Below, in pieces: positions 1,619 through 42,086 of a stretch of DNA of 64,000 nucleotides. Location: the NCBI RefSeq assembly GCF_030913635.1, contig NZ_CP133188.1, positions 1,860,001-1,924,000 of the forward strand, given 5' to 3'. Each line of letters opens with the position of its first letter. The stretch's first letter is position 1. The position numbers and the translations under genes are program-made. The notes beneath the pieces are model-generated. The model was not told the origin of the DNA. It made no database searches and saw only the letters and a list, made by a program, of their open reading frames with translations. Source of the DNA: Sedimentibacter sp. MB35-C1. GTDB taxonomy: Bacteria > Bacillota > Clostridia > Tissierellales > Sedimentibacteraceae.

Positions 1619-2449
1619 TTGAAGAAAGCCGACAATTTGACTATAAAACCAGTTAACAGAAACAAAATGCGTTTGATGGCTGGGAAGGTATATTATACAG
1701 CTTTGCGGTACATGCTGTGGCATTCAGGTAAGTATAAATATGCCGGGCATCAATCCGAAAGCAATTTGGAATATGAATATTTTTCTCATAATACTCCATT
1801 GATCAGAAAGCTTAAGGAAGTTGATATGATTTATCAATACAATAAAATTATCAATCTGAAGCTTGCGGTTAAAAAAATTGACGGAATAATAATAAAGCCA
1901 GGAGAAACCTTCAGCTATTGGAAGTGTATAGGTAATCCTACTTCAAGAAAAGGTTATGTACAAGGCATGGTTTTATATTGTGGAAGCTATACCATGGGAA
2001 TTGGGGGAGGATTGTGTCAATTGTCAAATCTGATATATTGGATGACTCTTCATACTCCGCTGACGGTTGTGGAAAGATATCGCCACTCATTTGATGTTTT
2101 CCCGGATTCAAACCGCACTCAGCCTTTCGGCAGTGGAGCAACCTGCGTTTATCCATACAGGGATTTGATGATAAGAAATGATACTGAAGATAACTTTCAG
2201 CTGAGAGTTAAGGTTGGAGACGCATACTTAGAGGGCAAGTGGCTGACTGATTTCAAGCCCTGCAGCAGATATGAGATAGTTGAAAAGAACCATAGATTTG
2301 AGAGCGAATACTGGGGAGCATTTAGCAGGCACAACGAGCTTTACAGAAAAAAATATAACTTGTCTGGAGAATTAATAGAAGAACAATATATAACAGAAAA
2401 CCATGCGCTGATGATGTACTCACCATTTATAGAGTCGGAAGCGGAGTGA
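1619..2449 (+). CDS. VanW family protein
   Basis: A 276-residue protein of the VanW family, named after an accessory gene of vanB-type vancomycin resistance clusters; its biochemical role is unknown. The family hallmarks are present: IKPGETFSYWKCIG, GIGGGLCQLSN and RHSFDVFPDS followed by FGSGATC. The start is a TTG preceded by AAGGGGAAG. No VanR/S/H/A/X genes surround it, so there is no sign of a resistance cluster. It follows the GNAT gene closely and is followed by a TfoX C-domain gene. No signal peptide is evident. Confidence 0.85.
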   Translation: MKKADNLTIKPVNRNKMRLMAGKVYYTALRYMLWHSGKYKYAGHQSESNLEYEYFSHNTPLIRKLKEVDMIYQYNKIINLKLAVKKIDGIIIKPGETFSYWKCIGNPTSRKGYVQGMVLYCGSYTMGIGGGLCQLSNLIYWMTLHTPLTVVERYRHSFDVFPDSNRTQPFGSGATCVYPYRDLMIRNDTEDNFQLRVKVGDAYLEGKWLTDFKPCSRYEIVEKNHRFESEYWGAFSRHNELYRKKYNLSGELIEEQYITENHALMMYSPFIESEAE

Positions 2450-2529
2450 AGCTTTATGACGTTAGCGTATGGCTATTATATTATTGTATTAACTGCTGTT
2501 GCCTAATAAAACTTGTGAAGGAGGTAATA

Positions 2530-2784
2530 ATGGGAGAATTAAGCAAATTACCGAATATAGGAATTAAACTTGAAGAACAGCTTAATGAAATCGGTATAAA
2601 TACAACTGAACAATTAAAGAAAGTCGGAAGCAAACAGGCCTGGCTTGAAATTAAGGCTAATGATAATTCTGCATGCATTAACAGACTGTGCGCGTTAGAG
2701 GGAGCAATACAAGGAATCAGGTGGCACAGCCTTTCAGAGGAAATAAAAAGTGAGCTGAAAAAATTTTGCAATTCAGTAAAATAG
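2530..2784 (+). CDS. TfoX/Sxy C-terminal domain protein
   Basis: An 84-residue protein consisting only of a TfoX C-terminal-type domain: LSKLPNIGIKLEEQLNEIG is a helix-hairpin-helix-like opening, followed by a Leu-rich helical part with CALEGAIQGIRWHSL, the usual family signature. Stand-alone copies are common in clostridia and their function is unknown; in Gammaproteobacteria, full TfoX/Sxy proteins regulate competence. The open frame extends to 2446, but the ATG at 2530 is chosen because GAAGGAGG lies seven bases upstream, while the longer version adds an unlikely Cys-rich stretch. Confidence 0.85.
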   Translation: MGELSKLPNIGIKLEEQLNEIGINTTEQLKKVGSKQAWLEIKANDNSACINRLCALEGAIQGIRWHSLSEEIKSELKKFCNSVK

Positions 2785-36229: not shown

Positions 36230-37537
36230 CTATTCTGTTACCTTGTAATATGTGGTTCTCAGAGCTATTATTGCGTCGTCAACTATGTCGGGATTGAATT
36301 GTGTACCCGAATTCAGCTTTATTTCACTTAATGCAGCCTCTAGGCTCAGAGATTTTCTGTAAGGTCTGTTGGTTGTCATGGCATCAAAGGAATCAGCAAT
36401 AGTGAGTATTGAGGTTTCAAGAGGTATGCTGTCATGACACAGACCGTCAGGATAGCCCTTTCCGTCATTTCTTTCATGATGATGACGAATAATATCTGAA
36501 ATATTTGACAGATAACTTAAGTCGGCAATTATAGTAGCACCTATTTCAGGGTGAGATTTTATTGTTTCAAATTCATCCCGCTCCAGTTTGCCGGTCTTAT
36601 TTAATATATTTTTATCTATTCCGATTTTACCTATATCGTGCAGCAAAGCGGCACTTTTTATCAAATCAATTTTGCTTTGAGGGAGTCCGATTTGCTTTGC
36701 AACTGCTTCGGAGTATGCGCTCACTCTTAACGAGTGTCCGCTGGTGTACGGGTCGTTTGCTTCAATAGCTCGTACCAAAACATTCATTGTTTCAAAATAG
36801 TTTTTGCGCATATCTATATAAAGCTTAAAAGTATACCTTGCCAGCAAAAGTGGAATGAAGAATAACAGCAGACCGCCGATACCGTAGCTGTTGTACGCAA
36901 ATGCAAGTATTATGCCTAACAATCCAACTAAAAGCACATTTATCATCATGGAAAAGAAATTGTTTCTCCATATGTAAATAAATTTCTCATTTAATAATAT
37001 TGACATTAAAGCTGACATAAAAAGGGTGTTCAGTAATATATATACTGATAATGCTGCAGCTCCTGCGACAGGATTATAAAAATCAAAACCTACATTTATA
37101 ATATTATTTAAGTATACATATGCCATTCCAGCCATGCCTGAACATATCATAAGTTGGCTTGTGTTAAATATAGTTTTATATATAGGGTTGTTTAAAATAT
37201 GGACTCTCCCTACGCCATCCTTATATGGAAATCTAAAAGCGACACCTATGGCGGATATTATTGAAGCCAATAGGGGATTTGTCAATATTATGGCAGAATA
37301 ATACAGTGCAAAGCTTACGGAAATTGCGCCAACTTTAGGAAGCAATATAAAAAATGTTTCCGCAATAATTGATAATGCGGAAAATACTATGAGCAGGGAA
37401 TAGTCATTTATAGCATATACTCTAGAAAGGTGCAACATAAGAACAAAAGCCGTAATAGCCAGTATGAAAATATATAAAAATAAATTTGTGCTTATTTTTT
37501 CTTTTTTAGGTATTTTATTGTCTGCAATATTTTTCAT
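36230..37537 (-). CDS. HD-GYP domain phosphodiesterase with membrane N-terminus
   Basis: A 435-residue protein. The N-terminal half has about eight membrane helices. The HD-GYP domain (about 240-430) has H300-D301-IGKIG, KSHPEIGA, and HHHERNDGKGYP, that is the HD pair, the His ligands and the GYP tripeptide. All catalytic residues are present, so it probably hydrolyses cyclic di-GMP or a related dinucleotide. Start 37537 is preferred to 37543 because GAGG would be too close to the latter. It lies 43 bases after the 25-residue peptide gene. Confidence 0.92.
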   Translation of the reverse strand: MKNIADNKIPKKEKISTNLFLYIFILAITAFVLMLHLSRVYAINDYSLLIVFSALSIIAETFFILLPKVGAISVSFALYYSAIILTNPLLASIISAIGVAFRFPYKDGVGRVHILNNPIYKTIFNTSQLMICSGMAGMAYVYLNNIINVGFDFYNPVAGAAALSVYILLNTLFMSALMSILLNEKFIYIWRNNFFSMMINVLLVGLLGIILAFAYNSYGIGGLLLFFIPLLLARYTFKLYIDMRKNYFETMNVLVRAIEANDPYTSGHSLRVSAYSEAVAKQIGLPQSKIDLIKSAALLHDIGKIGIDKNILNKTGKLERDEFETIKSHPEIGATIIADLSYLSNISDIIRHHHERNDGKGYPDGLCHDSIPLETSILTIADSFDAMTTNRPYRKSLSLEAALSEIKLNSGTQFNPDIVDDAIIALRTTYYKVTE

Positions 37538-37580
37538 TTTCATTCCTCATATAATGAAGGGCTGACATGTTAAATTGCTG

Positions 37581-37658
37581 TTAAGCCCAAGTAAAGCTTG
37601 CGCCTGCAGCTAGTACCAATGCTACTATTGAAGATATTATAGGCATTAATTTTTTCAT
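37581..37658 (-). CDS. 25-residue hydrophobic peptide in the HD-GYP operon
   Basis: A short frame with an unusually strong ribosome site (AGGAGGGG, seven bases before ATG). The peptide starts MKKLMPIISSIVALVLAAG and ends ASFTWA, thus two Lys, a hydrophobic helix and a polar tail; it could be a membrane peptide or a secreted signal. No family is known to me. It sits between an unknown conserved gene and the HD-GYP gene and follows a leader that can fold over the ribosome site. The combination of RBS and context makes it more likely real than chance. Confidence 0.6.
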   Translation of the reverse strand: MKKLMPIISSIVALVLAAGASFTWA

Positions 37659-37663
37659 GTGTG

Positions 37664-37730
37664 AACCCCTCCTACAGAGAATCTCTGCTCTGTTCGCTAG
37701 TAGAACAGGAAGGTTTCGCTACGCTAGTTT
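37664..37730 (-). ncRNA. Structured leader (three-helix junction) before the 25-residue peptide
   Basis: In the minus-strand RNA, AACCUU (37715-37710) can pair with GGGGUU of the ribosome site (37669-37664), enclosing CUGUUC/GAACAG (37708-37703 with 37695-37690) and CAGAG/CUCUG (37687-37683 with 37679-37675). Two G-U pairs in the outer helix only work on this strand. The repeat CUAGCG occurs on both sides. It may be a riboswitch or attenuator that hides the ribosome site; no known class is recognised. Confidence 0.45.
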
Positions 37731-37761
37731 TTTGTTTCTATTTTTTGTTTAGTCAGCCCGA

Positions 37762-38385
37762 TCATTCTTTTATAAATAAACAGATTTTTCTGTTTATAGC
37801 ATTAAGGGTAGCTTTTATTGTGGAATCGACCTTATTGTTATTAACAATTGCAGATCCTATCAGTGTGTTCTCTCTTCCACGCTCTATATGGGTAACGGAA
37901 GAAAGCATTACATCCATGCCTGCTATACGGGCGGCTTGTATATCATCAACTATGAAGCAGTCTAAATCAATTGCTTTTTTTATAGCGTTCAAAGTCGCCT
38001 GAGCCGCAACCATGAGGGTATTTTTTTCAGATTTTATTCCTTCTGCTTCTCCTATGTATTGTTTTTCATCCCATGAAAATTTAATGGAAATTTTTATTCT
38101 TTCCGAATTTGTCTCATTTGTATAACCTTCGTAAATCAGCCTGAAATCAGAGCTAATAGAAATGTTCTTATTAACTTGAGCAACACTTATAATCTTGTAA
38201 TCTACATCCAAATTAAAATGAGACAGTAGAGCAGTTCTTATGTCCCGCACAATTTGTTTAGAGTGTCGGCTGCTGTCAGACAGGACATGTATTTCAGTTA
38301 TATTATTATTAGAGTCGGTAATAATTTTACATGATAGAACAGATTTGATATTGGCGAGAAAATATTCTATTTCTTCGAAATCCAT
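37762..38385 (-). CDS. Conserved protein of unknown function, first gene of the HD-GYP operon
   Basis: A 207-residue soluble protein. The N-terminal half (TEIHVLSDSSRHSKQIVRD, then FNLDVDYKIISVAQV) is a conserved pattern I recognise from unannotated proteins in Firmicutes and Actinobacteria, and the rear half has AATLNAIKKAIDLDCFI. It lacks membrane segments and catalytic motifs. Two similar alpha/beta halves may be present. The start follows GGAGGACTAAT. A good promoter lies 30 bp upstream. A role as sensor or adaptor for the HD-GYP operon is only inferred. Confidence 0.6.
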   Translation of the reverse strand: MDFEEIEYFLANIKSVLSCKIITDSNNNITEIHVLSDSSRHSKQIVRDIRTALLSHFNLDVDYKIISVAQVNKNISISSDFRLIYEGYTNETNSERIKISIKFSWDEKQYIGEAEGIKSEKNTLMVAAQATLNAIKKAIDLDCFIVDDIQAARIAGMDVMLSSVTHIERGRENTLIGSAIVNNNKVDSTIKATLNAINRKICLFIKE

Positions 38386-38415: not shown

Positions 38416-38444
38416 ATTATAATACAACATTCCCTATAATTCAA
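38416..38444 (-). promoter_or_regulatory. Promoter of the HD-GYP operon
   Basis: On the minus strand TTGAAT, 17 bp, TATAAT, ending 31 bp before the start at 38385. Confidence 0.65.
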
Positions 38445-38490: not shown

Positions 38491-38539
38491 ATACAAAAAA
38501 ATACATTTGCAGGCAGACCACAAACGTATTTTTTTGTAT
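38491..38539. terminator. Terminator after cwlD
   Basis: ATACAAAAAAATAC pairs with GTATTTTTTTGTAT over 14 bp, loop about 21 nt, directly after the cwlD stop. Confidence 0.65.
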
Positions 38540-41783: not shown

Positions 41784-41837
41784 CATTTAAATCCTGTTGA
41801 TTTATAATTATTTCATAAATAAATGAAAATGTACTTT

Positions 41838-41990
41838 GTTGGTAACTTTTGTTTTAATAGGGAAAACAGTAAAAGCTGTTACAGCCCCCGCTACTGTGAA
41901 AGGTGATAAGGCTCATTGCCACTGTGAAAATGGGAAGGCGAGCGTTAAATGATCCGAAAGTCAGGAAACCTGCCAAATTAGTTTTTTATG
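41838..41990 (+). promoter_or_regulatory. Cobalamin riboswitch
   Basis: The B12-box features occur in order: TTTTAATAGGGAA, then ACAGCCCCCGCTACTGTGAA, GCCACTGTGAAAATGGGAAGG, GATCCGAAAGTCAGGAAACC and TGCC. It stands directly upstream of cbiB. Binding of adenosylcobalamin would favour the terminator at 42024 and lower expression of the B12 operon. Confidence 0.95.
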
Positions 41991-42023
41991 GATTGTCGGG
42001 AGGACTGTCTGAAATATGTGTGT

Positions 42024-42051: not shown

Positions 42052-42086
42052 GTTTGTCCAAATAAGGTATGTCAGAAAGGAATAAT

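Follow-up and report, generated by a model that had tools for sequence, protein, structure and literature searches.

An undescribed structured RNA and a conserved 25-residue peptide frame between two genes of an HD-GYP operon in Sedimentibacter and other Bacillota

Introduction

What is the function of the 103-nt gap (37659-37761, minus strand) that precedes a frame of only 25 codons in an operon for a predicted cyclic di-GMP phosphodiesterase of Sedimentibacter sp. MB35-C1? The window, i.e. the whole stretch of DNA analysed here, comprises 64,000 nucleotides of contig NZ_CP133188.1 (positions 1,860,001 to 1,924,000). An earlier note on this DNA, made by reading the sequence alone, had proposed that the gap holds a leader RNA whose outer helix hides the ribosome site of the short frame, that it seemed to belong to no known riboswitch class, and that it might be a translational switch for a nucleotide signal. 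Here we follow this proposal through the homologues of the locus, the gene context, the peptide and the predicted structures of the two flanking proteins.

Results and Discussion

Organization of the locus

On the minus strand the order of features is a candidate promoter, the gene for a 207-aa protein upstream of the RNA (37762-38385; hereafter UP), the 103-nt gap, the 25-codon frame (MKKLMPIISSIVALVLAAGASFTWA; 37581-37658, with its ATG at 37658 and TAA at 37581), the HD-GYP gene (36230-37543, a 437-aa frame) and a DUF5317 gene. The gap, the short frame and the strong Shine-Dalgarno (SD) sequence before it (GGAGGGG, 37666-37672) were found on this strand exactly as the earlier note had described them. 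For the HD-GYP gene, SD spacing makes a start at 37537 more likely than one at 37543. The candidate promoter (TTGAAT-17-TATAAT, 38416-38444), located before UP by a consensus scan only, is preceded by a strong terminator-like hairpin on the same strand (38493-38537) that lies 3' of an amidase gene, so that the operon probably has its own transcription start. Further along the window, on the plus strand, a cobalamin riboswitch (RF00174, 90.7 bits; 41823-41991) is situated 5' of a gene at 42069 whose product resembles CbiB/CobD.

A conserved core fold covers the ribosome site

The outer helix of the leader, P2, is formed by GAAACCUUC (37709-37717), an anti-SD strand, which pairs with the strand that carries the SD sequence and ends at C37663 (37663-37671), and thereby occupies most of the SD sequence. 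Within P2 lies the conserved hairpin P3 (37685-37708), in which CUGUUC (37703-37708) pairs with GAGCAG (37685-37690), and not with the nearer GAACAG. Of the two hairpins that had been drawn inside an outer helix, the helix itself thus stood and the first hairpin had to be re-paired in this manner, while the second (CAGAGAUUCUCUG) was lost: it shares its CAG with P3, for which it competes, and is a variant at genus level that is not conserved outside the genus. Three unpaired elements are conserved, namely the invariant motif UAGCGUAGCG before P2 (37717-37726; consensus AGCG-N-AGCG), the UAGCG of the P3 loop and an AG that follows P3, and the AGCG motifs hardly vary among loci. A mini-hairpin GC-GNA-GC within the 5' motif was considered and rejected, being broken by alignment rows such as L014, L034 and L035. 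At four loci (L214, L215, L222 and L224) there is an additional AGCGGAGC-like motif just upstream of the core, as though a binding site had been repeated.

The mean unpaired probability of the SD sequence was 0.05 in the window, and its median was 0.26 across 102 loci. The 3' strand of P2 overlaps or abuts the SD sequence, placing it in a conserved pairing, and a short anti-SD hairpin in the linker before it is an optional addition (43% of loci versus 17% of shuffles). Sequestration of the SD sequence by P2 is supported by conservation, as judged from sequence comparison, whereas a P2 that is stable in silico does not by itself show switching. Folding of the window leader as a single sequence beat chance only weakly (z of -1.3 and -1.4, levels reached by 24 of 200 and 19 of 200 shuffles, respectively), so that the claim of structure cannot be carried by a single sequence and is carried by the homologues instead.

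Homologues and covariation

Using UP as the query we recovered 55 loci from 150 related genomes, nearly all of which possess the same RNA directly after UP and then encode a peptide of about 25 aa. In other families P2 is composed of GAUAUAGCC with GGCUAUAUC, sequences that differ from those of the window, so what is conserved in P2 is the helix rather than its letters. A covariance model of 15 bp was built from 24 training sequences, all taken from genera other than that of the window because a first alignment had misplaced P2 of the own genus, MAFFT having aligned the SD sequence. In this training set 97.7% of the pair cells were paired, and changes on both sides were seen in 25 cells versus 7.2 in shuffles. 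With the own genus left out in this way, the model returned the window copy as the sole match in the 3.6-Mb genome (36.5 bits), and it found matches in 40 of 391 genomes of the class and 19 of 398 genomes of the phylum, with one copy per genome.

Covariation was then evaluated on 77 loci, none of them from the training set. Here 95.1% of the pair cells were paired, 14 of the 15 pairs exhibited changes on both sides, and 179 cells were changed on both sides compared to 35 in shuffles and far fewer in slid controls; further pair types numbered 53 versus 29, again far above all slid controls. Since the alignment of these loci was fitted to the structure of the model the counts lean towards it, but the slid controls carry the same bias and the margin is large. 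Compensatory changes in a common fold, in sequences outside the training set, identify the element as a conserved structured cis-RNA; they are also what the earlier note had looked to homologous loci for, together with a homologous peptide frame in the same place, which is likewise present. On this comparative evidence the RNA is real and old, and occurs in many Clostridia and other Bacillota. Its carriers include Caloranaerobacter azorensis, Geosporobacter subterraneus, Anaerosolibacter carboniphilus, Caproiciproducens faecalis and Caldicoprobacter algeriensis. A global DNA pattern scan, whose pattern was too loose, gave 120 stretches of which 30 were positive with the model, and all 30 came from Clostridia/Firmicutes or their members.

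At gathering score none of the 4227 families of Rfam 15, the cyclic di-GMP riboswitches included, produced a match to the element, be it the window copy or those of loci L197, L043, L063, L173, L191, L215 and L226, in agreement with the earlier note that it fits no known riboswitch class. A permissive Rfam search of the window and L154 gave chance matches only. In the literature covered we found no description of this RNA. HD-GYP goes unmentioned in the main texts of two genome-wide RNA surveys (PMC6429828, PMC11109978), whose supplements may nevertheless list such a candidate, named or unnamed.

The RNA is tied to one gene context

All RNA matches with flanking sequence lie between UP and an HD-GYP gene (at contig ends one neighbour only could be checked), except for a chance match of 28.5 bits (L223) that has neither gene beside it. 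In the reverse direction, 38 of 291 genomes of the class matched UP, or 37 after one marginal partial match (E 6e-6) was dropped, and all 37 genomes with a clear UP gene carry both the RNA and the peptide. In 31 of them the RNA was found by the model search, and in 6 it was recognised by eye as divergent forms, some with a long hairpin that covers the SD sequence. A metagenome-assembled genome of the own genus (G018, locus L232) shows UP followed by unrelated sequence with the RNA absent, probably owing to a false assembly join. In the Anaerosolibacter genome of locus L173, a raiA RNA (RF03072, 174 bits; 2305-2541, plus strand) resides about 2 kb upstream of UP.

Predicted structures of UP and the HD-GYP protein

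UP, the obligate neighbour of the RNA, belongs to no known family. Its AlphaFold2 model (mean pLDDT 92.9) shows a domain resembling the regulatory domain of LiCMS/LeuA (Z 10.4) behind one resembling the C-terminal domain of CzcD/ZnT (Z 9.2), likenesses of predicted fold that do not show function. For the HD-GYP protein (mean pLDDT 91.2) the predicted structure places an N-terminal membrane domain with the fold of an ECF S-component (Z 15.2 to TmRibU) before a catalytic domain that resembles 4mcw (Z 26.9). Residues H270, H302, D303, K306, H331, H355, H356, GYP 363-365 and D384 are invariant across 26 homologues, so that with all metal and GYP residues intact the protein is a predicted cyclic di-GMP phosphodiesterase and, judging by the modelled membrane domain, a receptor-like one. 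The MASE9 profile matched the relative at L197 (25.5 bits versus a cut-off of 24.3), and gave no match to the HD-GYP protein of the window.

The 25-residue peptide

That the short frame is real, as had been proposed, is borne out by its conservation inside the HD-GYP operon and by purifying selection, with pN/pS values of 0.14-0.49 in seven groups of homologues. An alignment of 101 distinct peptides, anchored on their near-terminal G-A, revealed small residues at positions -11, -8 and -4 in 99-100% of the sequences, which together form one face of a helix. The permutation value for this face is 0.0006 over positions -17 to -4, rising to 0.098 if the consecutive small residues at -3 to -1 are counted as well. 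The G-A at -2/-1 is present in 97% of peptides and a basic N-terminus in 101 of 101, and nothing above cut-off was found for the peptides in Pfam or NCBIfam. By sequence the peptide looks like a one-helix membrane peptide with a packing face, a likely membrane nature that was absent from the first reading. Two loci depart from the pattern: at L079 the RNA is retained and followed by an atypical peptide (MTFLTMILDLFTRTIASISWW), perhaps through a frameshift, with a tail end like that of the others, and in the draft genome of L056 a short duplication within the peptide cistron breaks the frame.

Of 103 peptides, 86 have a C-terminal tail of exactly five residues. The tail usually includes an aromatic residue and differs between species (SFTWA in the window; NYSWL, GYRWL and HFSWL elsewhere), although tails of 4 to 10 residues also occur; the A/S-x-G-A motif that precedes the last five residues would also suit cutting by signal peptidase. 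This invites the idea that the peptide is an exported signal, in which residues 1-20 would serve as a signal peptide cut after A/S-x-G-A, the HD-GYP protein would sense the last five residues through its S-component-like domain, and the RNA would set the amount of signal. A basic N-terminus, a hydrophobic stretch and an A-x-A-like site in nearly all peptides speak for it, as do the prevailing five-residue tail that varies between species and the receptor-like membrane domain encoded next door. Yet the conserved face at -11, -8 and -4 and the near-invariant G at -2 exceed what a signal peptide needs, and the tails that deviate from five residues fit poorly. We regard export as unlikely, if still the strongest rival to a peptide that stays in the membrane.

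A long-range helix encloses the peptide cistron

A further helix, P1, of 8-20 bp, closes around the entire peptide cistron, reaching from the UP stop codon to just before the HD-GYP ribosome site, and like the obligate UP gene and the unpaired motifs it had gone unnoticed in the first reading. In the window its 5' arm (GGGCUGAC, 37752-37759) lies directly 3' of the UP stop codon and its 3' arm (GUCAGCCC, 37559-37566) between the peptide stop and the HD-GYP ribosome site. Elsewhere the arms are other sequences, such as GACCGG/CCGGUC, GCCAAAACAUC/GAUGUUUUGGC and GUAAACCCGAA/UUCGGGUUUAC, with 91 different 5' arms in all. When the best helix was taken per locus, and likewise per shuffle, the median P1 score was 30.5 versus 25.5 at the 99th percentile with shuffled arms and 17 with arms taken from different loci, and 84 of 105 loci individually exceeded the shuffled 99th percentile. 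The enclosed stretch has a median length of 179 nt, the arms starting a median of 7.5 nt after the UP stop and ending a median of 10 nt before the next SD sequence. In the own genus the 3' arm continues into CCCUUCAU, the whole stretch (37544-37566, minus strand) being nearly invariant there, and CCCUUCAU could, in place of P1, pair with the HD-GYP ribosome site (CCUU with AAGG or GAGG).

The peptide stop codon lies a median of 14 nt before the 3' arm of P1, and a ribosome stalled there would touch the helix. It is thus conceivable, if rather improbable, that the peptide acts solely through being translated, P1 and hence transcription into, or translation of, HD-GYP being controlled by where the ribosome stands or by arrest of the nascent chain near the stop. 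U-rich stretches after P1 in some lineages (at least 6 U in 8; 22 of 102 loci) would suit such a mechanism, and in part of the loci P1 could instead be an intrinsic terminator. However, the U-rich sequence is weak in the window, which is among the many loci without a U tract after P1, no regulatory codon run was seen in the frame, and its conservation follows the pattern of a membrane helix. That the locus is a type I toxin mRNA with 5'-3' pairing under antisense RNA control is most improbable, for while a small hydrophobic peptide, a hidden SD sequence and long-range pairing of the cistron ends recall such systems, a single copy per genome fixed between the same two genes throughout the phylum is unlike mobile toxin loci.

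Relation to known systems

In its mode of action the RNA resembles known translational leader RNAs, but its layout and product are new. Translational riboswitches and orphan candidates that pair with the SD sequence, for instance the TIGR03647 candidate (PMC6429828), similarly display conserved helices and unpaired nucleotides before the start codon with the SD sequence in a helix. In contrast to such candidates, the element described here would control a 25-aa cistron between two genes, has a helix that closes the whole cistron and is missing from Rfam 15. It shares with uORF and leader-peptide attenuators (for example the ilvB and fthC motifs, PMC11109978) a short frame with its own SD sequence before the main gene and RNA structure around it, but differs from them in that the amino acids of the peptide are conserved phylum-wide, a regulatory codon run is not seen and the SD sequence of the frame is hidden by a conserved fold. 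Its likeness to cyclic di-GMP-I and -II riboswitches, whose covariance models do not match over the element, consists in a link to cyclic di-GMP genes by context only.

Among proteins, the transporter components KdpF and CbiN are very small hydrophobic products encoded beside their membrane partners. The frame of the 25-aa peptide similarly adjoins the gene for a putative membrane partner, whose predicted S-component fold is common to ECF systems, with the difference that this partner would be an HD-GYP enzyme.

A model for the locus

The reading we lean towards, if narrowly, is an undescribed cis-acting RNA that governs how much is translated of a small membrane peptide acting together with the adjoining phosphodiesterase. 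The ground state would have the ribosome site covered by P2, which contains P3 and is often joined by the short anti-SD hairpin, so that little peptide is made. A small ligand or a protein, perhaps UP itself, may be recognised through AGCG-N-AGCG, UAGCG and AG, and the resulting shift in fold would set the output of peptide; a nucleotide signal in this role, as suggested by the earlier note, is without support. The peptide would most likely be retained in the membrane as a single helix, where its row of small residues could pack against the S-component-like domain of the HD-GYP enzyme and thus adjust cyclic di-GMP breakdown. P1, for its part, would turn the peptide cistron into a closed domain and leave no more than about 20 nt between the UP stop codon and the ribosome site of HD-GYP, and could in this way keep UP and HD-GYP translationally coupled while the peptide is regulated separately.

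A bolder version, which we offer tentatively and think somewhat less probable than not to hold in full, is that the element defines a new class of riboswitch or protein-responsive RNA. Its output, a 25-aa membrane micropeptide, would be a regulatory subunit, and an obligate one, of an HD-GYP receptor with the S-component fold, and P1 would pass translation from UP to the enzyme while the enclosed peptide cistron is regulated separately. The locus would then constitute a signalling unit of three proteins and one RNA across the Bacillota.

Significance

The locus adds an RNA family with strong covariation that is present in many families of Bacillota and absent from Rfam 15 and from the literature searched, and a conserved small protein outside all Pfam and NCBIfam models that is tied, together with the RNA, to one predicted receptor-like phosphodiesterase. 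It is unusual for a helix to close around an entire cistron that lies between two genes, and this raises the question of how ribosomes or RNA polymerase pass it. Should the peptide serve the HD-GYP receptor as a subunit or as a signal, it would represent an extra layer of cyclic di-GMP control in Clostridia.
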